Origin: Lineus longissimus
Taxonomy: Eukaryota > Nemertea > Pilidiophora > Heteronemertea > Lineidae
DNA length: 64,000 nucleotides
Assembly (NCBI RefSeq): GCF_910592395.1
Contig: NC_088311.1
Coordinates: 12,092,501-12,156,500 of the forward strand
Direction: 5' to 3'
Below are positions 10,196 to 62,048 of the stretch, in pieces. Every line of letters starts with the position of its first letter. Positions within the stretch are counted from its first letter, which is position 1. The position numbers and the translations under genes are program-made. Under the pieces are notes generated by a model that saw only the letters and a program-made list of their open reading frames with translations, searched no databases and was not told where the DNA came from.

Positions 10196-10677
10196 CTACA
10201 ATGCAAGTCTGACTACTGGCTTTGAAAATCTGCCAGACCTGGTTGTTACAACGTATGCGCGGGCTCGGAGTAGATTGTCCTGGAGTGTTTCTACTGCAAT
10301 TGTTCCTGATTCACCATTGCTCACAGATGAATGATTTGAAATGTCTGGAGCAACCTGATTGTCCTGATCAGTATCCGAAAACGGTGCCAATTTGCATAAG
10401 CTCCGCCGATTTCTCCTAAATGTCCCTCTCGGTGTCCTCACCACATAAGAACGTGGAGTCCCAGCATGTCCTGAGATTGAACCAGTAACCTCCTTATCAG
10501 GAATCCACACAGTGTCTCCTATGCCTAGCTTTGGCAGTGATCAGGCTGCGTGATGGTTATCAGCATTCATAGTCATTTTTCTCCTATACTCCACCTTTTC
10601 CCTCAAGTCACCATAAGACCACTTAGGTTCTAATTACGAATGATGCTGAGGAAGTGTGTTGCGCAATCTCCTGCCCA
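10196..10677 (-). pseudogene. Ty3/gypsy pol, integrase C-terminal part
   Basis: On the minus strand the frame shows L-R-E-K-V-E-Y-R-R-K, then G-I-G-D-T-V-W-I-P-D-K and GTPRSYVVRTPRGTFRRNRR. This is the C-terminal module of gypsy integrases (the GPF/GPY-like region and the RRNRR motif). Two in-frame stops mark it as dead. Its upstream part is at 13365-15433; a TTAA-target element separates the two and the reading frame resumes in phase once that element is ignored. A probable LTR follows. Confidence 0.8.
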
Positions 10678-10969
10678 TTAAAGGTCATATATCAAGGTTT
10701 TTTGCCATTTTCTGCTGTAAGACGATTTCAAAAGTGTACCTAACACTTTATACAATACAGAAAACCAAATGCAATTAGCTCCATCCATTTTGAAGATATA
10801 GCCAATTATGTGTTTGACAACTTGATTACCTGATCAGGCTAGCAACTGGCTTGTTAGAGCCAGGCGGCGGGTTCAGCAAAAGTTGTGATGTAGATCATGT
10901 CATGCAATCATAAAAGCAGGAGGGCCTTAATTAGTTATGCACACCTGGAAGTAATGTGTTTCATTCACT

Positions 10970-11309
10970 ATGGTGTATTGTGTGGCTCCGAATTGTGTCA
11001 AGGCTAGCACAAAGAACAATCGAATGACGGATGGGACCCATTTTCATGAATTTCCAAAGCCAGTTGAACGAGAGAGGAGGAAGCTGTGGATTCGGAAGTG
11101 CAAACGTTTGGAGTGTTGGAAGCCTGGGCCTTCGGCCAAACTTTGCAGTGATCACTTTATCGATACGGATTATCACATGAAGCCGGATATCTGCATCCAA
11201 CTGAATATTAAATGCCACTTGTTAAAAACAGCTGTTCCATCTGTATTCGATTTGACCAACCCCACTTACATGCGACAGCCTCCAAAGGAACGTTCGTTAG
11301 CCAAAAAAC
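10970..11309 (+). CDS. THAP-domain protein, exon 1
   Basis: The 191-residue protein is encoded by this exon and 11893-12128. Residues 1-90 form a THAP zinc finger, a C2CH DNA-binding module: C-x4-C (MVYCVAPNC), then HEFPKP, W, C and C-S-D-H-F. THAP domains occur in host transcription regulators and in transposases of the P and Kolobok groups. Two donors are possible. GTAAGC at 11310 gives phase 1 and joins exon 2 in frame; GTGAGT at 11324 would read into a stop after six codons. I prefer the first. Start: first ATG, at the start of the domain. It lies 270 bp from the left TIR, so it belongs to the mobile element. Function is likely end binding or regulation, by inference. Confidence 0.8.
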
Positions 11310-11559
11310 GTAAGCATCAAGAAGTGAGTTGAACACTATTTCATGATTTATACACTGCTGATGCACACAACACTCATACTACCCAAATGGCACATGTCAT
11401 CCACTGTACAGTGGCTACACAACCATGTCAATTGCATTTAATGCCCGAGGCTACTGAGGTCGGTTGTTATACATAATGTGTAGGCCCTATTGGGGCCTGT
11501 GATACCGCATAGGCACGGTATATGAAACCAGGGGCGGGACATACCACTGCGGTGGGAGT

Positions 11560-11766
11560 GTACTCTATTAAGGAGAGCACTTGTCAGTCCCATGGGTGTC
11601 CTTAGGGACCATCTCAAAATTTACTGATGCAAAAAAAGAGGAACAGTGTTTGTCTGGGGGGAGTTTTCTAGGTGCTCAGTGTTCACAGAGAGACTAACAC
11701 TGTTCTTCTATTTTGGCATCAGTCAATTTTGAGATGGTCCCTTTAGAGAGGTTCCACTTGACTGTG
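11560..11766. mobile_element. Truncated pogo-like MITE with nested hairpin, in the THAP intron
   Basis: The outer pieces (CTCTATTAAGGAGAGCACTTGTCAGTCC and TTTAGAGAGGTTCC in broken form) match the pogo-like MITE at 5133-5299. A 137-bp hairpin (11605-11741) interrupts them: its ends GGGACCATCTCAAAATT and the reverse complement are near perfect, with GAACAGTGTT/AACACTGTTC inside. Two nested insertions therefore lie within the 583-bp THAP intron. Confidence 0.6.
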
Positions 11767-11892
11767 AACACCATTTCCATTTCCAGAGGTATTTCATGGA
11801 GATGATCTTGTGTCACCAAAAACAAACAGGACATCCTATAAATACTAAATATTAATTGTTAAAAAAAAATCAAAATATTCGTTCCTTTTCAG

Positions 11893-12128
11893 AATACATT
11901 CAACTTCTACTGAATGAGGTATTGAGACTTCGAGAGAAAATGCCCTCGTACAGCACTGCATTGGCCAATAGAGAAGATCGCATCAAGTCTACACCCAAGC
12001 CAGTCTGTACGAAATACACGAAACGTCAAACCAAACTTGAGGTCGTGGATAGCCGGAAGACTCGATTTAATCGGACGCTCAACTCTTTGGATAACGAAAG
12101 CCAGTGTACTCCTCTGAGGGCCAGGTAG
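11893..12128 (+). CDS. THAP-domain protein, exon 2
   Basis: The acceptor is CGTTCCTTTTCAG at 11880-11892. The exon encodes a leucine-rich, probably coiled-coil stretch (YIQLLLNEVLRLREKM), then a basic tail ending L-R-A-R and a stop at 12126-12128. Joined to exon 1 ending at 11309 it makes 192 codons including the stop. Its last 50 bp overlap the terminal exon of the opposite-strand gene. An AATAAA at 12343-12348 could terminate the transcript. Confidence 0.7.
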
Positions 12129-12235
12129 AGCGAATCTTGTCACGAGCACAGACTGGAAGAGGAAGTCTTTGCTTTTTGCCCAAACGTTGCCAGCACCAGC
12201 GCACAAATCTGCGGTATGCAAGGTATCTCCATAAC
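12079..12235 (-). CDS. P2X7-like zinc-domain protein, exon 3
   Basis: The acceptor CTGTCTTTTCAG precedes codons for L-W-R-Y-L-A-Y-R-R-F-V-R-W-C-W, then L-P-V-C-A-R-D-K-I-R and Y-T-G-F. These are the conserved ends of the C-terminal domain first seen in P2X7 receptors. Stop at 12079-12081. It overlaps THAP exon 2 tail to tail by 50 bp. Confidence 0.85.
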
Positions 12236-12398
12236 CTGAAAAGACAGTTTGAGAGAAAATTTGAGTTCAGATGAAACATAATGCATACAATGTAGTATGG
12301 CCATGAATCCTTTGTGCTGAAAGCAGTTGTTTCTGTTTTGTAAATAAATAGGAAGTGTACATGTACAGGTTTCTGTTATTTTACTTATTTCAACTTAC

Positions 12399-12629
12399 TT
12401 GTGCATTGGCTGATCATTTCCTATTGGCCCTTGATCTTGGATAAATTCATACATGGCACTTTCCAGGACATATCGGTCAAGGCAGTTGCTTGCGAATCCG
12501 GGATGCAGAGTTATGCAGGCAACTCCATCTGGCTCATAACTTTCCTTCTTGGCCAGAACTGGGGAATAGTCACTGCAGCACATCGACTCTGTTCCAGTGA
12601 TTTGAGCTGTGCAGTTTCCACAGTCACAC
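12399..12629 (-). CDS. P2X7-like zinc-domain protein, exon 2
   Basis: The exon carries the cysteine core of the domain: the codon split at the intron gives W-C-D-C-G-N-C, followed by C-C-S-D, then CITLHPGFASNCLDRYVLE. The acceptor is TTTATCACTTCAG and the donor GTAAGT at 12398-12393. The junctions keep phase on both sides. Confidence 0.85.
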
Positions 12630-12928
12630 CTGAAGTGATAAACGTTTACATATTTACAAAAAATGATGATTAACACTAGACCAGTTGCCAGTTGCCCTCC
12701 TTGGCTTCCCTCAGTCTCAGTGATGATGAGGCCGAGTCCATGACATGGCAGATGGCAAATGTCCTTCAGAGACTGTTCAAATACATACAACCATTGAACC
12801 AATACAAAGCCATCCAAGAAGTGCCAGAGCATCAGATAAAGTTCAATTGTGTATAGTAGTAGTGGATGCATGTCATGATGTAGTGCTGTGTGCATAGAGA
12901 ACAGAGTGAGAATGTAAACAAAACTTGC

Positions 12929-13125
12929 CATTTTCTGTTGCCTGCACGTTCAGGGCGTTCATCCTCCACTTCCTCATCACTTTCGTCCGAATGATTACTC
13001 TCATTATGATCTAGTGATATCAATGGCTCGAACATGTATGGCTCAACGTTTAAATATCCTTCTGTATCGACCAAAACATCCTCAAATTCACTGCTCTCAC
13101 TCTCTGAACTGTATGCGGAAGCCAT
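12929..13125 (-). CDS. P2X7-like zinc-domain protein, exon 1 (GC donor)
   Basis: This starts a 194-residue protein with exons 12399-12629 and 12079-12235. ATG at 13125 has a strong context (AAGATGG). The N-terminus is acidic and serine-rich (ASAYSSESESSEFEDVLVD), with no transmembrane segments, so it is not an ion channel; only the cytosolic zinc-binding tail domain of P2X7 is present. Such stand-alone proteins are abundant in aquatic invertebrates and of unknown function. The donor is the non-canonical GCAAGT (12928-12923); with it the exon ends in TG and joins to make the conserved W-C-x-C-G-x-C motif, which no nearby GT donor does. Located 235 bp from the right TIR. Confidence 0.85.
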
Positions 13126-13364
13126 CTTGCTTTGTTCTGACTGACACGACCTACGTCATCAAAAAATCCCTAGCGGCCACATGTGGAACTAATCTAAAGT
13201 TGTGTGTGGTGGGAAATTCAAATAGTTTCAAATTGAAAATTGAAATAACTAAATAATGACTTTATTATTAGAATTTTTTTAATGTCTGGGATCTTGTTTT
13301 TTTAACCCTCAACATATTTCATGAGTATCAAGCATGTTTTCAAACCTTGATATATGACCTTTAA

Positions 13365-15433
13365 CATTTCGCTAGGGTTGTAGCCATTTTGCAAAGGGGT
13401 AGAACGGTAAGCTAGCAATGCTAAGGTGAAGTCTTGATCAAGTTTGATCTTGATCAAGTTTTTAACAGTTTGTACCGCTCTTTCTGCTTCTCCATTCCCT
13501 TGCGGATACAACGGACTGCTCGTCACATGTTCAAATACAAACTTATTGGCAAAACTCTTGAACTCCTTGGAGTCATATTGAGGTCCATTATCACTCCTTG
13601 GTCTCTCCGGAATTCCATGCCTGACTATTAGGTACTGCTGCTTCTTATACTCAGCAAGATCTGTCCCTAACACTTGCCAAGGTCGGCGAGGAAATTCACC
13701 TTGAATAGGCTCGTGCCTATAGCTCCTCATTTTCGCTAAGACGGTAGAGTTTTTAACTGAGCACTTAATCCGGGCCACCATACTGAATGTTTAGCTCTTT
13801 CCCTACATTTGGTTGTTCTTTGATGACCCTCGTGTATTTTATCCAGTATCTCCAAGCGCATACTCACTGGAATAACTATACGAGTCCCTCTCATAAGCAA
13901 TCCATCCTGAACAGTAAGCTCGCCTGAAATAGGGTAGTAAGGCTTTACAGCACCTCTAACGAATGGACGGTCAGGCAAACCGTCTTACAGTATTGAATTG
14001 AACCAATTAACGGCAAACCTCGTCCTCCGATTGTCTCTCCTCGATCTGCTGCAGCCGATCTGGCTGGCAGATTTTGTGCAAATACCCGAAACATATGCAG
14101 TAGCATTGAGATCAAATTTAATGTCCGCCTCAGACCTTTCCCTTTGAAGCGGTGCCATTGATAGCGCATCGGCTATATAGAGTTCCTTTCCTGGCACATG
14201 CTTAACTAAATGCTATACGAGTACTTCATGGGCCTCATTTGAATCTCTGAACCCTAGCTGATCACTGGTAGCATTTCAAGGCTTTTGCCTCCTCCTAGCA
14301 GTGGAACTAAAGACTTATGATCTGTCTCCAATAAGAACGTTTTCCCTAGAACACAATCTGAAAATCTCTTGCAAGCCCCTGTGGCTGCCAATGCCTCTTT
14401 CTCTCTTTGTGTGTAACGCTTATCAGTGTCATCTAAGGTCCTTGACGTATATGCTACAGGTCTTGTAACACCTTTCTCGTGCACCTGCAGAATAGCTCCC
14501 CCCCAGTCCTTAAGAAGAAGCATCCGCTGAGACCATTGTTTCCCTCTACGGATCATAAAGTGCAAGCTTTCAAGCGCTCCTTTCTGGGGACCTTCCCTGT
14601 CCCAGCTGTTTTTCTTACTCATATGAGAACGTAAAGGTTCAGTCTTACTAGCTAAGTTCAGTATAAATATCCCTAGATAGGTTATCATGCAAAGCAATCT
14701 CCTGAGTTCTGGCACGTTCTTTGGCTCTGGAAAATCCTGAACTGCCTTGATTTTCCTTGGGTCAGGCCTAATGCCGTCACTATCAAGTATGTATGCTAAA
14801 TACAACAATTTCTCCTCAGAGATCTCACACATTGGTACATTCAAAGTTACTCCTGCTTCCATAAGTCTCTTAAACACTGCGTATAACCGCCGATCGTGCT
14901 CCTGTTTAAATCCATGCCGTACACAAGTATGTCATCAATTTCAACGAGAACGTTGTCCAGTCTTTCTTGATTTTCTTGCGTTCGATTTTGAAAGAGTTTG
15001 AAAGAGTTTGGGCCCCGATAAGATTCCACATGGAAGTCGATTGAAACAATACCTGCCCCATGGCGTCATGAACGTTGTGAGCTTCCGACTCTCAGGATCC
15101 AATGGGATCTGCCAGAAACCGGAATTTGCGTCTAGCTTACTGAATACCTTTGTGCCCTTTAGTTTCGCCAAAGTTTAATCAACATATGGCATTTGATGCC
15201 TTTCACGACAGACACTTTAATTTAGTTTAGTCAAGTCCACACATATTCTTACTGAACCATCCGGCTTTGGTACTACGACCATACCAGCACACCAATATGT
15301 TGGCTCTCGCACCTCCGATACAACTCCTATGTTTGCCATCCTTTCAAGTTCCTCCTTGGTCCACTTTAGAAGTGGAATGGCAATTCGTCTAGCCGCAGAA
15401 ATTGCATAGGGCTTAGCACCATCTTTTAGCTTT
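13365..15433 (-). pseudogene. Ty3/gypsy pol: reverse transcriptase, RNase H and integrase core
   Basis: Reading leftwards from 15433 come the RT start (A-R-R-I-A-I-P-L, VSEVREPTYWCAGMVVVPKP), the palm with K-L-D-A-N-S-G-F-W-Q-I and an I-D-D-I-L-V-Y catalytic segment, and the thumb. RNase H follows (D-W-G-G-A-I-L, T-D-H-K-S-L), then the integrase zinc finger (H...H...), the core (G-T-D-L-A, D-N-G-P-Q-Y-D) and A-Y-R-S-T-P. Many frameshifts and stops break it. The 5' part (gag, protease, 5' LTR) is missing beyond 15433. The 3' part is at 10196-10677, beyond an inserted element. Confidence 0.85.
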
Positions 15434-22430: not shown

Positions 22431-22970
22431 CTGCCTATAAATAGCCAATTAAAACCCAACATGGCAGAATACCCTAATTACTAATTCATTTCAGAGCTCT
22501 GACACTTTTTTTCAATTTTTTCAGGATTTCTAAGCTCAAACTAATTTTTCTGACTTGAAATTTGTTTGACAAGTCTATGAAATTATAGTTCACTCATCTA
22601 CCAAATATGAGTCCTAAGAAAGCTTGTAATGCTTAGAAATTAAGGAGTAAAAATTATAACCCCCAGAAAAACAGTTGATTTTCGAAAATGACTGACAGCT
22701 AACTCATGAATATCCGAGAACAAAGATGGCGGATAGCTGAATGAGCATGCATGCATCAAGCATTGAAATCAAGTGAAGTAACTTACAAATTCCTACAATT
22801 TATGTATCCCAGACTTATTCCAAAAACTGATAATTTTCCATGTTAATCCATTTAATTCAAAAATCTTGGTTTAGTTCACACATGTTTTAAACGTCATAAC
22901 ACAATCACAGAAATATATGCTCCAAGTCCAAGACCAAGATAAGATACAATCCATCTGGCATCTCGAATAT
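22431..22970. other. No gene recognised
   Basis: AT-rich sequence between the dispersed repeat and the satellite element. No domain, splice-bounded exon or repeat is evident. Confidence 0.4.
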
Positions 22971-23867
22971 TTACGGCAGCAGATCAGTGCCATAAAAAAT
23001 AAAATATTATCTCGTTATTACGAGATCTTTTCTCGTTATTACGCGATGTTATCTCGTTATTACGAGATCTTTTCTCGTTATTACGCGATGTTATCTCGTT
23101 ATTACGAGATCTTTTCTCGTTATTACGCGATCTTTTCTCGTTATTACGAGATGTTATCTCGTTATTACGAGATCTTTTCTCGTTATTACGCGATCTTTTC
23201 TCGTTATTACGAGATGTTATCTCGATATTACGCGATCTTTTCTCGTTATTACGAGATGTTATCTCGTTATTACGAGATCTTTTCTCGTTATTACGAGATG
23301 CGAAAGTGCACGCAACATCGAGGATTAAGGTCTCATTAGGGAGGTTTTTTTTTATCCATGCGCGGCCAAGCCCTACGGCAGCAGATTAGTGCCATAAAAA
23401 ATATAAAAAATAAAATATTATCTCGTTATTACGAGATCTTTTCTCGTTACAACGCGATGTTATCTCGTTATTACGAGATCTTTTCTCGTTATTACGAGAT
23501 CTTTTCTCGTTATTATGAGATCTTTTCTCGTTATTATGAAATCTTTTCTCGTTATTACGCGATGTTATCTCGTTATTACGAGATCTTTTCTCGTTATTAC
23601 GCGATCTTTTCTCGTTATTACGAGATGTTATCTCGTTATTACGAGATCTTTTCTCGTTATTATGAGATCTTTTCTCGTTATTACGCGATGTTATCTCGTT
23701 ATTACGAGATCTTTTCTCGTTATTACGCGATCTTTTCTCGTTATTACGAGATGTTATCTCGTTATTACGAGATCTTTTCTCGTTATTACGAGATGCGAAA
23801 GTGCACGCAACATCGAGGATTAAGGTCTCATTGGGGAGTTGTTTTTTTTATTCATGCGCGGCCAAGC

Positions 23868-24580
23868 CCTAACCGTAGTTCCTAAAATCATTGATTTCTC
23901 GGTCCTTACAGTATGTCAGCGTTGATTCAGCAGTTGTTTTGGCAAAGACATGTTTTTTTGGGGTTTCTGAAACCTAGAGCGCTACTCAATAGGCGACTAA
24001 CAAGAAACTACGCATTTATACTGTTGTTGCCGACGTATGTGTACACTGAACTTGGGATGTGCGTCGGCCCCGTGTTGAAATGCCGTCCAGTACCAGTTGG
24101 TGCGTTTTTCGCTGATTTGTTCAAAATTCAACATATCTCAAAAGTTCAATGGTTGACCCTCGATTTTTTTTTATTTTTGTGTAGCGTAAGCAACTGTCTT
24201 TCATGGGAGAATGGTCTCTATAAGAATTATTCAGGAAGAAATGTATAATATTTGGGGTTTTTCGTGATTGTCCGGCCCAATTGGCAATATTGCCATTTGG
24301 GATGGTGAACAGAGCTAGGAGCAAATGCGACGCTTATGATTTATTTAAAGAAATAAAATGCCCGATTTAACATCCTGCAGAATCAGGGGAATCGGGCGTT
24401 TCCAGTGATATACGACACAAATGGGTTGTCCTCATGCATTCACTTTGGAAACGCATTTTAAAATAGATGTTACGTCCTGTTAATGGGGCACGTCATCATC
24501 GCGTACATTTGGGAAAAACTCCCTAACGAGACCTAAAGCTCAGGATCAAGCGCGGGAAAGGTCCGTACTTTATAGACCCA
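23868..24580 (+). repeat. Middle segment copy 1 of the satellite element
   Basis: It runs from AGCCCTAACCGTAGTTCC to the start of satellite block 3 and is duplicated at 24890-25612 with only scattered single-base and indel differences. No coding frame is shared by both copies, so it appears to be non-coding. Confidence 0.8.
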
Positions 24581-25945: not shown

Positions 25946-28243
25946 CAAGGAGGATACCGCGGTGACGTCACGGCTTTTCCAAGATGGCGCTACATATTGT
26001 AAACAAACTCGATCCACGGCCAAGGGGAAAATCAAGTCATCAAAAAAGTTAGATTTTTCGCATCAAATCAGAGTTAATATTATCAGTGCAGTGCCCTAGT
26101 AAGCGCGCAGCGCCTTTAGGTTGGGGGGAAACCCCCCAAACCCCCTGGTTGGGACCCTGCTATAGTTCCTTCCGCCAATTTTTTGTTTTGATAGACAGTT
26201 TTCTCCGTGTATCGCATTAGCAGTAACTCAACTCCATCGTCATAATAGCCGGCAAAGAAATGGAAAATGCCCCCCCCCCGAAAGGTGTCCAGACTATCGT
26301 AGTCTGGGACTCGGGCAGATTCTAATGTAAAGTGCAAGCTCTATTGAACTCGCGCAACTGTCGCCATGGAGAGCCCCCCCCCCAACCCCCGTCCTTCTGA
26401 CATGTTTTAGCCAGTGCATTGGGGGGAAGGCCCCTCAAACCCCCTATTGGCCTCTCAATAAGTCCTTCCGAGCTGCTTACCCTGGGGCGCTCGGGTGGAA
26501 CCCCCAAATCTTCATGATGGTGCAGTCCTTTGACACGTTTAACCCAGAGCGAGGAAGAGGTACTCCTTTGATGGTACCCTAACTGCAACCCTCAACCATC
26601 ATTACCCTTCCTTTTCACTGGCATGATATTGGCAAGACTCCCTAGTGGTCGTACTGGTGGCTTCCTTGAGACAATTGCTTGTGGTCGTACCTGGGCAACC
26701 AATTCAAGGGGTCAGGGATCTAGGGATCAGGTTTTTCCCCCACCAACATATTGCCGAATGGTTAATGCATAAAAAATTGGTTGGAAAGGGTTTTTGCTGG
26801 CCAAGAGACTTGAAGACACTTGACTCTTGAGGAACACCAGACTGATGAACAAAGAACCTGAGGAACATAGAACCCTCTTCATACCTGGGAGCATAAAAAG
26901 CCTGCTAGCGAATATTGATTATTCTTTAGAAAAAAACGGAAGATCTGCAAAACCAATGGTACCCCATAAAAACATACATTCCTCCTTGAGGTGTCTTCGG
27001 ATCCCACCACGGCCCGTGTGGAATTCGTTCAAAAGGTTTATTGAAATCTCAAAATAAAATTTTTTTCTCGAAACGCCTGCCCGTCTTTTGCTTCATTATT
27101 TCGGGATTAAATCCATTTTAAGCATCTTTTGGATATTATCGCTAAAGTTTCAAAAATCAAAACACATATGTCAGGGGGTAAACCCCCTGAAATTGAAGTT
27201 TGATTAAAAAACAGTGAGAATAATCGTGTGGTGCTCTCTCGGAGCTCAGAATAGTCGAGTTACTACTTTCGCGCGTTTATCTCTTCTGGCGGCCATTTTA
27301 AGTCAAATTTAAGCCATTTGAAACGAATCCATGGACTTGAGAAACATTGTTTACATTGGATACGTCGTATGCACGTTAACCATAGTAGCGCTTCGCAGAA
27401 AAGCCTTCGGCCTCTCTGCTGCGCGCTTATTAGTACTTTTCTGCTATGAAATAAGTCTTCAGACAATAAGCTATCATTTGAATAATGAAAAGTGCTGTTT
27501 TGATGGGGAAAAATAGGGTTTTTTAAACCAAATAGCCGGGCACCGATCTTCCAAAATTAGCGATGGTTTCAAAACAGTCTCCCAGATATGGGGCAATCTC
27601 TTCATTATCATAATGGGATTTGGAGGCATGTTTACAGATTTTACAAGTTCGAGACCTGTAATACCTAAAACTCGCATAGATCCCCATAGATCCCCTCTAT
27701 TTGTCGAGTTAGCGCCCCTGTAAGATCATGCATTTTCGGACACTAGAACGAAATCTTCCTGCGGATATCGCGGTTTCGGTGATGATTTAAGGAGAAATTG
27801 ACTGTTCTTAGAGTTGTATGGGACAGAAATGAGTTCATACTTCATGAATACATGAATATATTATGATATGGGCGGGCTTCTAAGTCAAAACAATAACAAA
27901 CTCAACTGCATCTCTACTGTATATTGCGTAGTGCATTGCCTAGTGTATTTCGTAGTGTATTTTAGCGGAGACATTATTTCCGCACTTTGGCCACGCCAAA
28001 CGTCTTTTTTATTCGTGGAAGTTAATCTGCTCTGTAAATTTTATTTTACACAGGAAGAATCCATACTAGGTATTGCAATATTTCATGTCTATTGATGTTT
28101 TTGTGTACAGGAGCGCACCAGACAGTGAGACGTGGAGATGTGTTCAGTGCTGGTGCTGTCAGTAGACTGAATCTGATTGGCCATAGCGATCACTAATATG
28201 GGTCGGGATCACGTGATGTGACGTCACCGCGGTATCCTCCTTG
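25946..28243. mobile_element. 2.3 kb TIR element with 9-bp target duplication (MULE-like size)
   Basis: Perfect 26-bp TIRs begin CAAGGAGGATACCGCGGTGA (25946-25971; inverted 28218-28243). They are flanked by CATGTAGGG direct repeats (25937-25945 and 28244-28252). A 9-bp duplication fits Mutator-like or Merlin-like elements. The interior shows GC-rich AACCCCCC tracts and several short frames without recognisable transposase motifs, so it is non-autonomous or badly decayed. The insertion splits the minus-strand gene at 28253-28885 within a tyrosine-methionine codon pair. Confidence 0.88.
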
Positions 28244-28252
28244 CATGTAGGG

Positions 28253-28885
28253 CTGACTTTCCAGATTAGGGAACCACCCTCGAACAAGTTTTATGACACA
28301 ATTTGGCATTATGTCCCTCCTATGGTATATGTGTTTCCTGCGGCCTGGGTCTGCAGCAATTGCTGCTGCTTTCTTCTCAATGTATCTTTGGATTTCCCAT
28401 GCACCAAAGTGCAGCAAGTTCGTCCAAAACCTCTTATAGACAGGTTTTCTAAGAGAGTGGTTATCCTCATCTGGGGCGTGGTTCTCTGTCTCCCACCAAA
28501 GTTCACGATTCCTTTCATCTGTCACACAAGGCCTACAAAAACAGTACTGGCACTCCTCAGCCTCTAGATTCTGCTCCAGCCTGAAGTCATTTACATATGG
28601 CTGACCAGGTTCTTGTACCACTGCACTTTCCTCTTTGTCCTGGTCGATATTTTCGTCACTTCCTTGGCTGTTCACTTCAATCTGTTGGTCACCATTGTTC
28701 ATGAGCTTTTGAGGGTTTACTTCTCCAAGTTCCCAGTCATTAAATGTAATAAAAGCATGGAGTTCTTCTTTCTGCTCGTCTGACAAACCACGAAGGACTA
28801 ACCAATCTTCCATGACTGCATGAAGCAGAGAAAGCGAGGGAAATGAACTAGACCAGTTCTGGTACCCATTGGTGACATGCACCAA
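28253..28885 (-). pseudogene. Conserved cysteine-rich protein of unknown function, 3' end displaced by a transposon
   Basis: The frame shows a cysteine cluster (C-Q-Y-C-F-C-R-P-C-V-T), then WW, N/R-K-x-x-Y-K-R-F-W, and HRRDIMPNCVIKLVRGWFPN ending at Q-P-Y-M. I recognise the layout of a family common in marine invertebrate genomes, usually ending M-P-x-C-V-x-x-x-V-R-x-x-Y-P-N-P...P-Y-M-G-H; it has no established function and is often linked to mobile DNA. The TIR element enters right after Y-M. As it stands, 17 codons of transposon sequence replace the natural end and stop at 28193. The natural continuation, beginning G-H-Y-V, is on the far side at 25936 and below. The 5' end is not defined; an intron upstream is possible. 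Confidence 0.65.
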
Positions 28886-29292
28886 ATAAGGCCAATTGTT
28901 TTGCCACTTTTGTTTCCCTAAACGCTGAAATGACTGAGCTGAGATAAGTCAACTTTGAGTTCACCTGATCAGAGATGGGTGATGTACTTCAGAAACAAAC
29001 AAACAAATTCTCGGTCTAGTTTCTGGGTACTGAGATCTGGTCATTAGGTCAGCATCACTTTGGCGGGAACACATTGGGTGAGTCTATTGGGATTTAGATC
29101 ATGGGTGCAACTTGAACATCATGACAAACACCAAAACAACCTCGACACATATTCATGTGCTAAGATGTGGGATGACTTGCATCTGAATGGGTCTTTACTC
29201 CCTGATCCAAGAATAAGTCAGATCCAAACAAGTTGGTTTTAGAAGAGTGAAATGTACACTGATGATAATCAGCTGTCTCATACATTGTCTCC

Positions 29293-55699: not shown

Positions 55700-57031
55700 T
55701 CACACGATTTTGAACGAAGGTGGAAATGGCTTAGTGCTGTTTAGCCAGTGCAAGACTATTTGGCTATTGGACCAAAGTGTAGTGGATGTCACTGTCTGAC
55801 GTAACTGACTGCGTACGTAATGAAACAAGCGCGCGGCTAACAGGGCGGCCATTAACTCTAAGCGTGGAAGTGTAATTTGCTTCGTTGGGGGCACTCTAGA
55901 CTTGACAATGACTAACGCAATTTGATTTCCACAGCGTAGATGAACACATGCGCCGTAGGCTTTGACGCTACTGTCCCCAAAGGCATGAAGGTGACAAGGC
56001 TCCGTTGAGCTAGCATCCAAGTTTGGAAAGTAATGCCGTTTGATATGGCATTGCGTAGATGCGAATTGTAAGTCATCAGCAATAGTTTGCCATGTGTGAC
56101 ATAGATCTGCTGACAATGGTTCGTCCCATTGTAGACCTTCTTTCCAGAGCGACCGGAGGAAGATGTGAGATCTTATGGTTACAGGACTCAAGTGGCCTAA
56201 CGGATTGTAAATTAGACTAGAGCATTTGAGCACTTCGCGCTTTGTGGGCGCTTGAGAAGACCTGAATTCAGGCGTTTTGAAACCAAGAGTATCAGAGTTT
56301 GTATCCCAAATCAAACCAAAAACAGGTGTGCTGCTGTCCGAATATACGGTACCGGCGTTTGTTGCAGCTTCATTCAGTAGTTTGCTATTGGATGCCCAAG
56401 ATCTGAGGTTTAAACCTTTTGATTCTACTAACGCATTGGCTGACTTGAAGTAATCCAGTGCCTCTTTGTCGGTTGTAACCCCACTGATTACATTATCGAC
56501 ATAGATGTAGTCAGAAATGTCTCTGGCGGTCTCCGAGTCATTTTCCTGTAGATGCGGGCAAATGACGGCGTTGAGAATGGCTGGACTTGCGATGGAACCA
56601 AATAAGACAGACGAAAACCTGTGTACAATGAAATCACTCTCTGGGTCGCTCGGATCGGACAACCAGAAGAATTTTGTGAAATCTCTGCAGTTTTCATGTA
56701 ACCCAACGTGAAGGAAAGCTTTTTCCAGATCACTACTGAGTGCGATGGGATGATCCCTGAAGCGGATGAGGATGCCTGCCAAGTCATTTGGAAGTTGAGG
56801 ACCCTTTCGCAGACAGTCATTGAGACTTGGTGTGGTTGGCGACTTGCAACTACAGTCGTAAACAACGCGGATAGGCATGGTTGCCGAGTCCTTTTTGACG
56901 CAGTGATATGGTAGATAATGTCCCGATCGGGGGTCATCATCCTCCACACGCTCAACAAAACCACATTGGGCTTGTTCCTGTATAATGTGGTCATATACTT
57001 GAATCGTATCAGGCGGAAGGCGTCTCACCAT
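55700..57031 (-). CDS. BEL/Pao reverse transcriptase and RNase H (uninterrupted part)
   Basis: A continuous 443-residue frame. Fingers and palm: Y-L-P-Y-H-C-V-K-K, R-V-V-Y-D-C-S, SSDLEKAFLHVGLHE (first catalytic Asp in D-L-E-K-A-F) and F-G-S-I-A-S-P-A-I-L. The catalytic box reads Y-I-Y-V-D-N where Y-V-D-D is usual, so the second Asp is lost. RNase H follows from H-A-F-G-D-S-S to the L-P-R-L-E-L-M-A-A motif and W-S-N-S, again an Asn where W-T-D-S is expected. Long open frame but likely inactive for these substitutions. Confidence 0.85.
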   Translation of the reverse strand: MVRRLPPDTIQVYDHIIQEQAQCGFVERVEDDDPRSGHYLPYHCVKKDSATMPIRVVYDCSCKSPTTPSLNDCLRKGPQLPNDLAGILIRFRDHPIALSSDLEKAFLHVGLHENCRDFTKFFWLSDPSDPESDFIVHRFSSVLFGSIASPAILNAVICPHLQENDSETARDISDYIYVDNVISGVTTDKEALDYFKSANALVESKGLNLRSWASNSKLLNEAATNAGTVYSDSSTPVFGLIWDTNSDTLGFKTPEFRSSQAPTKREVLKCSSLIYNPLGHLSPVTIRSHIFLRSLWKEGLQWDEPLSADLCHTWQTIADDLQFASTQCHIKRHYFPNLDASSTEPCHLHAFGDSSVKAYGACVHLRCGNQIALVIVKSRVPPTKQITLPRLELMAALLAARLFHYVRSQLRQTVTSTTLWSNSQIVLHWLNSTKPFPPSFKIV

Positions 57032-57127
57032 GTTTCTGGTGCGGGCCTTAGCAACGTTAATGTTGGTTGGTAGATGCGGATGCTGGGGTTTCCACGGCAG
57101 TTTTGAGAAATAATGTTTCTCGCATTT

Positions 57128-59850: not shown

Positions 59851-62048
59851 CCCTTTCCCGTCGTACATATGGGATAAAACACCGTCGTATTTGGTGCATC
59901 CCGCATGGACGACGGGATGCCTAAAAACCCATCTAAAATTTAGCCTGATCGGTGCTGCCATCTTTACAGTTGCTCAAACTAATCTAGACTGCTGTTCACA
60001 GTGTATTTCCCAACGTATCGTCTGCTACACTTGCAAATGGCGGGCAATAGCCAGAGGCAGCGTTTCGATTTGGGTCAAGTTGTGTCACAAATTCTCAACG
60101 ATGACAGTGATTCTGGTGATGAAGGATTGGATCTCGGTGAATCTTTAGTGCATCAAGATGCAGGATATGATAGTTCTGGCATTGATTATGACTCTGATGA
60201 TAAATATAATCTCGATACTACCAATTCTGAATTGTTTGTTCAGACTGGCACCCAGTCTGATGTAGGCCCACACATAGACATGGATGTGCAAAGTGATCTG
60301 TCAGATTATGACTCTGCTGACAATGATAATGCAATTAGTGCGCCTGTACCTGCTTGTGTGCCACTACCAGCTCCAGTCATCACTGGCCCTGTTCAAGCTA
60401 CTGCCAAACTAAGAGGTCAAGGTTTGGGGTCAAGTTCTATAAACTGTGTACCAATAACGGCATCTTGCTTGACTTTACAATATACTGTGGGGTTAGATTA
60501 CCAGAAACCCAAGGCTTGTCAATTGCAGAAACCATAGTTGCCACTCTAATTGAGCCTCACTTGAATGCCAGGAGGTGTGTGTTTCTTGACAATTACTATA
60601 TATTACCAAACCTTGCAGCTTGGTTAGTATCAAGGGGCACCTACGTTACTGGAACTGTAAAATCAAACAAGAAGAACTTTCCTAAAGAATTTGCTGCTGC
60701 CAGAGTTGAGAAGGGACAGACAATCTTCTATGGTGTGATGATGAACATGTCTTGGCGGTCAAGTTCCGGGCCCTCAAGGACAAGTCCATTGGAAAGCCCA
60801 ATACCATACGTCTGTTGAGCACAGCAACTGGTGCTGACACTGCTCCTACTGGGAAGAAAGATAGACAACAAAATGATATCATAAAACCTACCTGTGTGAT
60901 TGAGTATAACCACCAGATGAGAAGGTTGGATCAGATGGACCAGCAACTCCATGGATTTCACATGTGTGGGAAATTGTACAAATGGTACAAGAAGGTTACC
61001 TTCCACCTGATTATGCAAGGCAGCCTTAGTGCAAGCAAACTGTACAGTGGGCATGAATGGACCGCAGTTCCTTTCCTAAACTTTCTGCATGATTTTATCG
61101 CTATGCTATTGACTTCAAGCCCAAAGCTGAACCGTCTGCTTATCTGTGAGGAGACCCTTCATCGACTCACCGGCCGCCACTTTTCAGTGTCCTGAGGATA
61201 TCAAGAGAGTGGAAGGCATCCATTAGCCGTCTGTAAACTTTTCGTTTCCGCTCATTTTAACGAGAACGCTTTGAGTAATAACCATGTTACTTTTTATGTG
61301 GGTAGAAAAAGATGACGTGTACAGCGGGCATTACAAACCAATGACTCTTTCACGATGTCAACTAAACCCAGTCAGCTATGACACCAGCTGCCCAGGGTTG
61401 TCTGAAAAACACTTCACTTTCCTAATACACCAACTCAATGTGCTCACGGGGGCATATGCCTCGCCTTGCCTTGCTCTTGTTCATCATTGATGATCTCAAA
61501 TGCATTGGGGAGCCATCTACAGTTTGCCAATTGAACTAATAGACTTCTGGGCTTCAAGTAAAAATTCACAGATGATATTTGGTTCGTTTTGAGTCTGCTG
61601 GGGGGGGGGGCGTGGGTATTGAATCTGACTTGCAAAGATTTCGTAATGGTCGTAACCTTTTTTCCTGCAGGTATTATTGTATATATAATTCTGAAACTTT
61701 TTGGACATTGTCTCTTTGTATTATATATCAGTTTATACATGTAAGTTATAATTCAAGCGATTTTCAAGGAAATATTCTGTTATTCGATAAAAATGGTTTC
61801 TGACAATTCTTCGGAAAAAATTCAGGACACAAAAATTGGCAAAATTGAAGAGACTCAGAAAAATATTCAAATTCATGGATATCTATAATCAACATATCAC
61901 TGTAATGTGGGGATCAAGACCTTTCTAATGTAATGGTACCAAGCAAGTAGAGGTAGGGGGAGTATTTTTTTAAAAATCCTGAAATCCTGCTTTTTCCTGA
62001 AAATCAGCTAGGATCTGGGAATCGTCGCGTCAAAATCGGCTGAAAGAG
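59851..62048 (+). mobile_element. piggyBac element 1 (mosaic, TTAA-bounded)
   Basis: Flanked by TTAA at 59847-59850 and 62049-62052. It starts CCCTTTCCCG and ends (inverse) CTCTTTCAGCC, matching over the first bases as piggyBac termini do. It holds a transposase with an internal deletion (60037-61195). From about 61490 to 61650 a stretch resembles the leader of piggyBac relic 2 (49370-49530), followed by a 3' end shared with that relic. The element is therefore a patchwork of two related families or two abutting copies. Confidence 0.8.
60037..61195 (+). pseudogene. piggyBac transposase relic 1 (N-terminus joined to C-terminal half)
   Basis: ATG at 60037 opens an acidic N-terminus (LNDDSDSGDEGLDLGES). 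Near 60410-60425 it joins, in another frame, directly to F-G-V-K-F-Y-K-L-C and CVFLDNYYILPNLAAWLVSR (catalytic Asp of the D-N-F-Y-T-S-P motif). The domain ends with E-Y-N-H-Q-M-R-R-L-D-Q-M-D-Q-Q (last catalytic Asp; usual D-Y-N-x-x-M-G-G-V-D) and F-L-N-F-L-H-D. The segment with the first catalytic Asp is deleted. A possible cysteine-rich tail remnant (S-C-P-G-L-S-E-K-H-F) lies near 61390. Dead. Confidence 0.82.

Follow-up and report, generated by a model that had tools for sequence, protein, structure and literature searches.

Kolobok transposons duplicate TTAA upon insertion and carry 5′-RR and YY-3′ ends, termini by which they are distinguished from piggyBac (Kojima and Bao, PMC9587614). According to the same source, families of the Kol0 lineage encode a DDD/E transposase together with a second protein, KolX, the counterpart of the cytoplasmic P2X7 ballast; both nanor and the receptor tail are traced there to KolX. 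Kolobok transposases usually contain a DDE domain, a THAP domain, and an H2CH motif (Hikosaka and Konishi, PMC6004289). The locus analyzed here lies in a stretch of 64,000 nucleotides from the ribbon worm Lineus longissimus (NC_088311.1, positions 12,092,501 to 12,156,500; hereafter the window). In a preliminary description made from the sequence alone, an element bounded by TTAA had been noted at 10682-13360, with an intact THAP gene and an intact P2X7-like zinc-domain gene as its only cargo. With a probability of roughly 95%, this element belongs to the non-autonomous derivatives that arise from a Kol0-type Kolobok by internal deletion, and it would have been moved in trans. Comparison with a longer copy of the same family showed that the stretch lost from the middle holds transposase exons, and that THAP exon 1, the last exon, KolX, and the terminal inverted repeats (TIRs) were kept. 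The pairing of the two proteins, of which the preliminary description knew no precedent, is not new, as Kol0 elements with DDD/E transposase and KolX are already published (PMC9587614); the element is an ordinary deletion derivative.

Termini and insertion site

The element comprises 2,679 bp between perfect 19-bp TIRs, with TTAA on each side. Its outer features, with the evidence for each in brackets, are:

10678..10681, unstranded: left TTAA target-site duplication (sequence, empty-site join, TTAA-pair scan)
10682..13360, plus strand: whole element, a non-autonomous internal-deletion derivative of a Kol0-type Kolobok, 2,679 bp (TIRs, copy alignment; same deletion in copy L009)
10682..10700, plus strand: left 19-bp TIR, starting 5′-AG (RR) (sequence, TTAA-pair scan, genome word count)
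13342..13360, minus strand: right 19-bp TIR (sequence, TTAA-pair scan)
13361..13364, unstranded: right TTAA target-site duplication (sequence, empty-site join)

The ends read 5′-AG...CT-3′ (AGGTCA...TGACCT; terminal sequence of the family, AGGTCATATATCAAGG) and are thus of the 5′-RR/YY-3′ type of Kolobok. Among TTAA pairs spaced 300-8000 bp apart in the window (332 TTAA sites), no other was associated with a perfect inverted repeat longer than 8 bp. In the genome (391 Mb, 30 contigs), TTAA followed by the first 16 TIR bases occurred 112 times (53 forward, 59 reverse), compared with 0 for the reversed-pattern control. When the element was removed and the flanks (260 bp each) were joined, a Gypsy integrase frame was continuous over the junction (...NPSEML, followed by MGRRLRNTLPQHHS) and contained a single TTAA, which indicates that the element is a precise TTAA insertion into an older retrotransposon. 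The joined frame ends with a stop 12 codons past the junction, so the Gypsy copy that received the element, and whose Pfam rve match stayed under the gathering score, is broken as well. Fragments of Gypsy (integrase, RNase H) flank the element at window positions 10196-10540 and 13302-14931 (minus strand), and the insertion lies in the integrase frame. The TIRs and flanking TTAAs of the preliminary description were therefore borne out by the sequence, the TTAA-pair scan, the empty site, and the 112 genomic occurrences; a TTAA target-site duplication, as in Kolobok, is indicated by the flanks, the empty site, and the word count alike. Membership in the piggyBac superfamily (TTAA with 5′-YY termini) was considered and rejected, because the element ends 5′-AG; piggyBac ends take the form CCY. 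No subterminal repeats emerged beyond the TIR, the best shared words being 8 bp long when inverted (reached by 134 of 200 shuffles) and 9 bp when direct (50 of 200).

The transposase remnant, its family, and related families

The left 519 bp of the element yielded 566 first-look candidates, of which 40 were scored, all of them at 97-100%. A search with KolX exon 2 returned 17 full matches (97-100%), two partial ones, and one from a sister family (75%), 20 in total. From the listed places of TTAA plus 16 bp of TIR, 28 convergent end pairs were assembled by eye, bounding elements of 1,016-3,933 bp. Three longer copies, L013, L017, and L028 (extracted spans of 3,933, 3,807, and 4,782 bp), align with the window copy on both sides of a gap; L017 is colinear with it except for a single gap of 1,128 bp inside the THAP "intron". 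Within the gap region, the E exon SSLESYHNICCHFAPKSLHFGYEGMKAR of the transposase is complete in L013 and partial in L028, and the C exon LAALHFNENSKRAQAANKDG...VKVPVTY is present in all three. The window copy, from which this middle stretch is deleted, encodes no DDD/E transposase itself; of the longer copies, for which the preliminary description had proposed a search, each of these three carries E and/or C exons. The corresponding features of the window copy (the sister copy and the protein P0004 are introduced below) are:

10970..11323, plus strand: transposase exon 1 with THAP domain (C2CH, AVPSVF box) and conserved GTGAGT donor at 11324 (Pfam, motif, sister comparison, P0004)
11310..11315, plus strand: alternative, non-conserved GTAAGC donor, required by the 191-codon model (sequence, sister comparison)
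11512..11513, plus strand: deletion junction (element coordinate 831), where 1,128 bp of L017 are absent (copy alignment)
11604..11742, unstranded: imperfect intron hairpin with 52-nt arms, 90% complementary, present too in L013, L017, and L028 (sequence, copy alignment)
11893..12128, plus strand: last transposase exon (YIQLLLNEVLRLREKMPSY...), homologous to the last exon of the sister, SEYVKTLLETVLKLRREMPSY (sequence comparison with sister)

The deletion is not confined to the window. L009, on another contig, carries it too (99.5% identical); L012 and L014 have in common a different deletion, and L022, L025, and L027 a third junction, so deletion forms occur at more than one place. Relative to L017, an overlap of 0-4 bases is seen at the simple junctions (window, L011, L012, L014, L016, L018, L021, L031), and that of L032 contains 15 unmatched bases, a pattern that is the usual behavior of internal-deletion derivatives. 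THAP is broken in L011, L029-L032, and L037-L040; KolX exons 2 and 3 are missing from L015, L016, L018, L019, L021-L023, and L025-L027. In L030 and L037, which have one deletion in common, THAP residues are fused in frame to the transposase C exon (GTHFHEFPKPVER, continued by AQAANKDG).

The remaining transposase exons were found in related families. A sister copy on contig C17 (C17:1639058-1644482) spans 5.4 kb between TTAA-AGGTCAGTAGCCCCA ends, the initial AGGTCA being common to both families. On one strand, THAP is followed in this order by LAGDARCCSPGHTAKFGSYSVMD, ITDRHSQIKKYL...FDVWH, a zinc region, SLESYHN, and the C exon, and the series closes with a homologue of the exon at window positions 11893-12128; KolX lies on the opposite strand, convergent on the transposase exons. 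L042, from a more distant family, matches 8 of 8 sister exon queries and again has a convergent KolX; its ends are beyond the fetched stretch. In both, the transposase parts are separate open exons whose joins are predicted. In Pfam, the joined sister exons showed similarity to MULE, ISL3-DDE, and Mutator (E values of 1.5e-4 to 2e-4, all below gathering). The D, D, and E motifs in the sister and L042 are presumably those of a Kolobok transposase. A DDD/E transposase is thus represented by E and C in L013 and L028, and by D, D, and E in the C17 sister and L042. Among at least 23 KolX exon-2 loci outside the window family (150 of 636 candidates scored), an E exon within 4 kb was detected by script in 19, convergent in 19 of 19; the other four, inspected by eye, are also convergent, with a C exon at C16:9722555, C12:9280791, and C10:10671963 and a D1 piece at C15:325379. 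Convergence of KolX with transposase exons is hence observed in at least three diverged families, and the 23 listed loci bear out the earlier suggestion that the P2X7-like zinc protein is part of a TTAA transposition system. A locus at C11:9,099,xxx, considered as a complete copy of the window family, was rejected, as it proved to belong, in rearranged form, to the C17 sister family (96% DNA identity).

Splice patterns and exon joins, in the window copy and in all relatives, are predictions from sequence. The exon with the THAP match (PF05485, E value 1.6e-13) has an end point common to L017 and the sister, where a phase-0 GT donor follows (GTGAGT, GTAAGT); L013 has GTGAGG there. The last exon starts in phase 1, behind the C exon, according to the comparison of L017, L013, and the sister. 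If the conserved donor at 11324 is joined to the exon at 11893 in the window copy, the product stops after 124 codons and does not contain the last exon's reading frame, whereas the 191-codon product depends on the GTAAGC donor at 11310. Between the window copy and the sister, pN was 0.30 and pS 0.84 for the THAP exon, and 0.34 and 0.86 for the last exon. By these comparisons, the "THAP gene" consists of the two outermost exons, first and last, of a Kolobok transposase that has lost its middle (DDE) exons, THAP being the N terminus of that transposase and not a second cargo gene. What had been taken for the only cargo, two genes, is actually two remnants of one transposase gene plus KolX. Two open frames, arranged tail to tail with a 50-bp overlap, are indeed present, but the notion of an intact THAP gene with working splice phases could not be upheld. 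A full-length protein with the THAP domain of the window was not found when the 118-residue exon, X-padded to 669 letters, was used as query (11 candidates, none at an E value of 10 or better).

KolX and a predicted THAP-HP1 protein

The P2X7-like protein is encoded on the minus strand by three exons (13125-12929, 12629-12399, 12235-12082), giving 194 codons:

12929..13125, minus strand: KolX exon 1, start codon at 13125, GC donor (sequence; donor kept in sister)
12399..12629, minus strand: KolX exon 2, zinc-cysteine core (sequence, genome search)
12079..12235, minus strand: KolX exon 3 with stop, overlapping the last transposase exon by 50 bp (sequence)

The overlap of the convergent reading frames corresponds to 12079-12128. 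Intron 1 (window 12928-12929; L033) is of the GC-AG type in the window family and in the sister family. A provisional splice form with one extra residue matched the P2X7 tail (PF20478) with an E value of 3.3e-11, and the nearest protein, P0001 of L. longissimus (99% identical), with 4.5e-13; D184 of P0001 is the product of a single base change present in copy L013 (contig C15). All seven cysteines of the ballast pattern are present, as is one further conserved cysteine; the CC pair was assigned by pattern and is left unpaired in the phmmer alignment to P2X7. When the PDB was searched with P0001, the four best sequence matches were P2X7 (E values of 3.2e-5 to 1.2e-4), followed by a match at 0.24. 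AlphaFold models of three KolX sequences had a mean confidence score (pLDDT) of 50.6; the nine best Foldseek matches of the low-confidence KolX model (50.6) were all P2X7, none reaching an E value of 0.001. A P2X7 ballast fold for KolX is thus supported mainly by sequence, and weakly by structure. The Pfam match, the PDB sequence matches, and the cysteine pattern identify the predicted protein as KolX, the published accessory protein of the Kol0 lineage (PMC9587614). Between the window copy and the sister, the dN of KolX was 0.21 and the dS 2.25 (near saturation), a ratio of 0.09, which points to a KolX that is functional over long times. Scans for KolX in viral contigs and in bacterial and archaeal contigs, and for the TIR in viral contigs, gave no matches.

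A minus-strand open frame of 251 amino acids at window positions 28193-28948 has no Pfam match; its end (RRDIMPNCVIKLVRGWFPN) weakly resembles that of KolX, with an E value of 0.002 pairwise and 0.11 in the window search, and a probability of only 1% in profile comparison. PiggyBac proteins with a KolX-like C terminus are mentioned in PMC9587614.

The most interesting by-product of the analysis is a predicted fusion of THAP with HP1. In P0004, a predicted Lineus chromobox 3-like (CBX3/HP1) isoform, THAP exon 1 of the family runs in frame into a protein that has chromo and chromo-shadow domains; the exon differs from the window family at 5 of 118 residues and is continued from the conserved donor (the equivalent of 11324). 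These differences are absent from two THAP copies on contig C13 (L034, L035). P0004 is possibly a young fusion of host and transposase sequence that could bring HP1 to Kolobok ends, and would be a young example of a heterochromatin protein to which the DNA-binding domain of a transposase has been added.

Elsewhere in the window, a piggyBac-type transposase remnant is located at 60710-61192 (plus strand; DDE_Tnp_1_7, E value 5e-6), a Bel/Pao-type fragment at 55700-57127 (minus strand; Pao peptidase and reverse transcriptase matches), and a long stretch of repeats (SRYYEIF), with several open frames distributed over both strands, at 22875-23885.

Mechanism, alternatives, and comparison with known systems

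The window copy would be mobilized by a transposase from another copy or a related family, which binds the TIRs, probably via its THAP domain, cuts at TTAA, and pastes; in this way the copy would have entered the Gypsy element. If transcribed, the window copy could provide KolX in trans. It could also yield a truncated, THAP-only transposase of ∼124 residues (191 if the alternative donor is used), which might act as a competitor for TIRs in the manner of the KP protein of P elements.

Several observations weigh against a deletion derivative of a Kol0-type element. The D, D, and zinc exons were found in no copy of the window family: direct tests covered 16 of the 17 copies with a full KolX exon 2, and the remaining one, that of the window, was covered by the genome-wide searches for D1, D2, and zinc exons (150 of 246 and 150 of 280 candidates scored). 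Besides the full copies to which this result applies, two partial KolX exon-2 copies (C5:16056791, C6:11525069) and two further D2 fragments (C17:4540320, C10:11511001) are among the genome matches listed. The family's complete form is therefore inferred from its own E, C, and last exons and from relatives; its transposase core may be lost, may lie in another individual, or may be supplied by a relative such as the C17 family. Moreover, 7 nonsynonymous and 3 synonymous changes were counted in KolX over 12 gapless copies of the family (3.99:1 expected, P = 0.43; L037-L041 left out of the count), and a stop is present in one of these 12 (L011) and also in L040. The THAP exon gave 6 nonsynonymous and 2 synonymous changes over 11 gapless copies (opportunity 3.92:1) and no stops. 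Because changes within the family show no sign of selection, the open frames of the window copy show only youth. Of the contrast drawn earlier between intact frames and otherwise broken mobile DNA, it stands that KolX is open, but this openness reflects youth; likewise, the suggested comparison of dN and dS across copies revealed constraint between families, and no sign of selection among near-identical copies.

In its strong form, the inference of the preliminary description would amount to a self-sufficient TTAA transposition system of the THAP protein and the P2X7-like protein, without a DDE transposase. Both are present between TTAA-TIRs and a second locus carries the same deletion; nevertheless, such a system is very improbable, given that related families have DDE exons downstream of the THAP exon and that E and C exons persist in longer copies of the window family. 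It is equally improbable that the two genes are captured host passengers. Copies without both genes had been named as the observation that would make them so, and 32 of the 40 scored left-end copies indeed have no KolX exon-2 match within 10 kb (8 have one), with THAP broken in several of the fetched copies. However, the copies devoid of KolX have arisen by internal deletion, and the genes are found together again in other families (KolX is convergent with transposase exons in at least three diverged ones), so that their absence does not make them passengers; KolX is, besides, a published Kolobok protein (PMC9587614).

A different question is whether usefulness to the element or the host explains the persistence of forms that retain THAP and KolX, which would serve as a KP-like, TIR-occupying repressor together with KolX. 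KP-type P elements keep the DNA-binding domain, have an interrupted transposase, and can repress transposition (PMC12393704, PMC7776569); the window copy has the same combination of a kept DNA-binding domain and an interrupted catalytic part, and of the deletions that preserve THAP exon 1 and KolX, two different ones are present twice, one in the window and L009, the other in L012 and L014. This explanation is nonetheless doubtful: changes within the family look neutral (7:3 and 6:2, as above), many deletion forms break THAP or drop KolX exons 2 and 3, such forms also occupy several loci (L022, L025, and L027 with one junction, L030 and L037 with another), and the product from the conserved donor is the 124-codon one. 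Rather speculative, and in our estimate improbable, is a joint scheme in which KolX would be a trans-acting guanine-nucleotide and zinc subunit of Kol0 transposition, deletion forms would be regulators that donate KolX and compete through THAP, and the host THAP-HP1 fusion would direct heterochromatin protein to the ends of Kolobok. A GTP-binding insertion domain is part of P transposase (PMC7776569, PMC12393704), and the P2X7 ballast has a guanosine-nucleotide site (PMC7016195); under this scheme, KolX would serve Kolobok in the way that the insertion domain serves P transposase from within. The link between the GTP-binding domain and KolX is a hypothesis. If it were true, the P2X7 receptor would owe its GTP-binding ballast to the exaptation of a transposition cofactor.

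For the deletion derivative of a Kol0-type Kolobok, the following comparison with known systems applies. Like KP of Drosophila (PMC7776569, PMC12393704), the window element has lost internal sequence in such a way that its THAP DNA-binding end is kept and the catalytic part is interrupted; in contrast, KP belongs to the P superfamily and has no KolX, and a KP-like repression by the window element would be by analogy. The Xenopus Kolobok transposases (PMC6004289) have a THAP C2CH, an AVPTIF-like box, and a DDE core, as do the relatives found here; the words "P2X" and "accessory" do not occur in the main text of that paper. With the P2X7 tail and nanor (PMC7016195, PMC9587614), KolX has in common the WCxCxxC, CC, CIT, and PxC cysteines and, of the five listed guanine-nucleotide contacts of rat P2X7, the equivalents of R546, R574, and R578; it differs in H547 (Y in KolX) and K583 (S), and in that it is a separate protein, encoded by a transposon. 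Stand-alone P2X7-tail proteins of invertebrates can thus be transposon proteins under long-term constraint, and the young, many-copy family with its short, defined ends is a setting where KolX can be tested. The parts of PMC9587614 that deal with KolX do not list the ribbon-worm phylum for Kol0, nor do the parts on Kol0 state a gene order, whereas the genes in the window are convergent and overlapping; the window copy further differs from Kol0 in having no D, D, zinc, E, and C exons. It agrees with the Kol0 lineage (Kolobok-1_XT type; PMC9587614) in the TTAA duplication, the 5′-RR...YY-3′ ends, and a KolX with the ballast cysteines.

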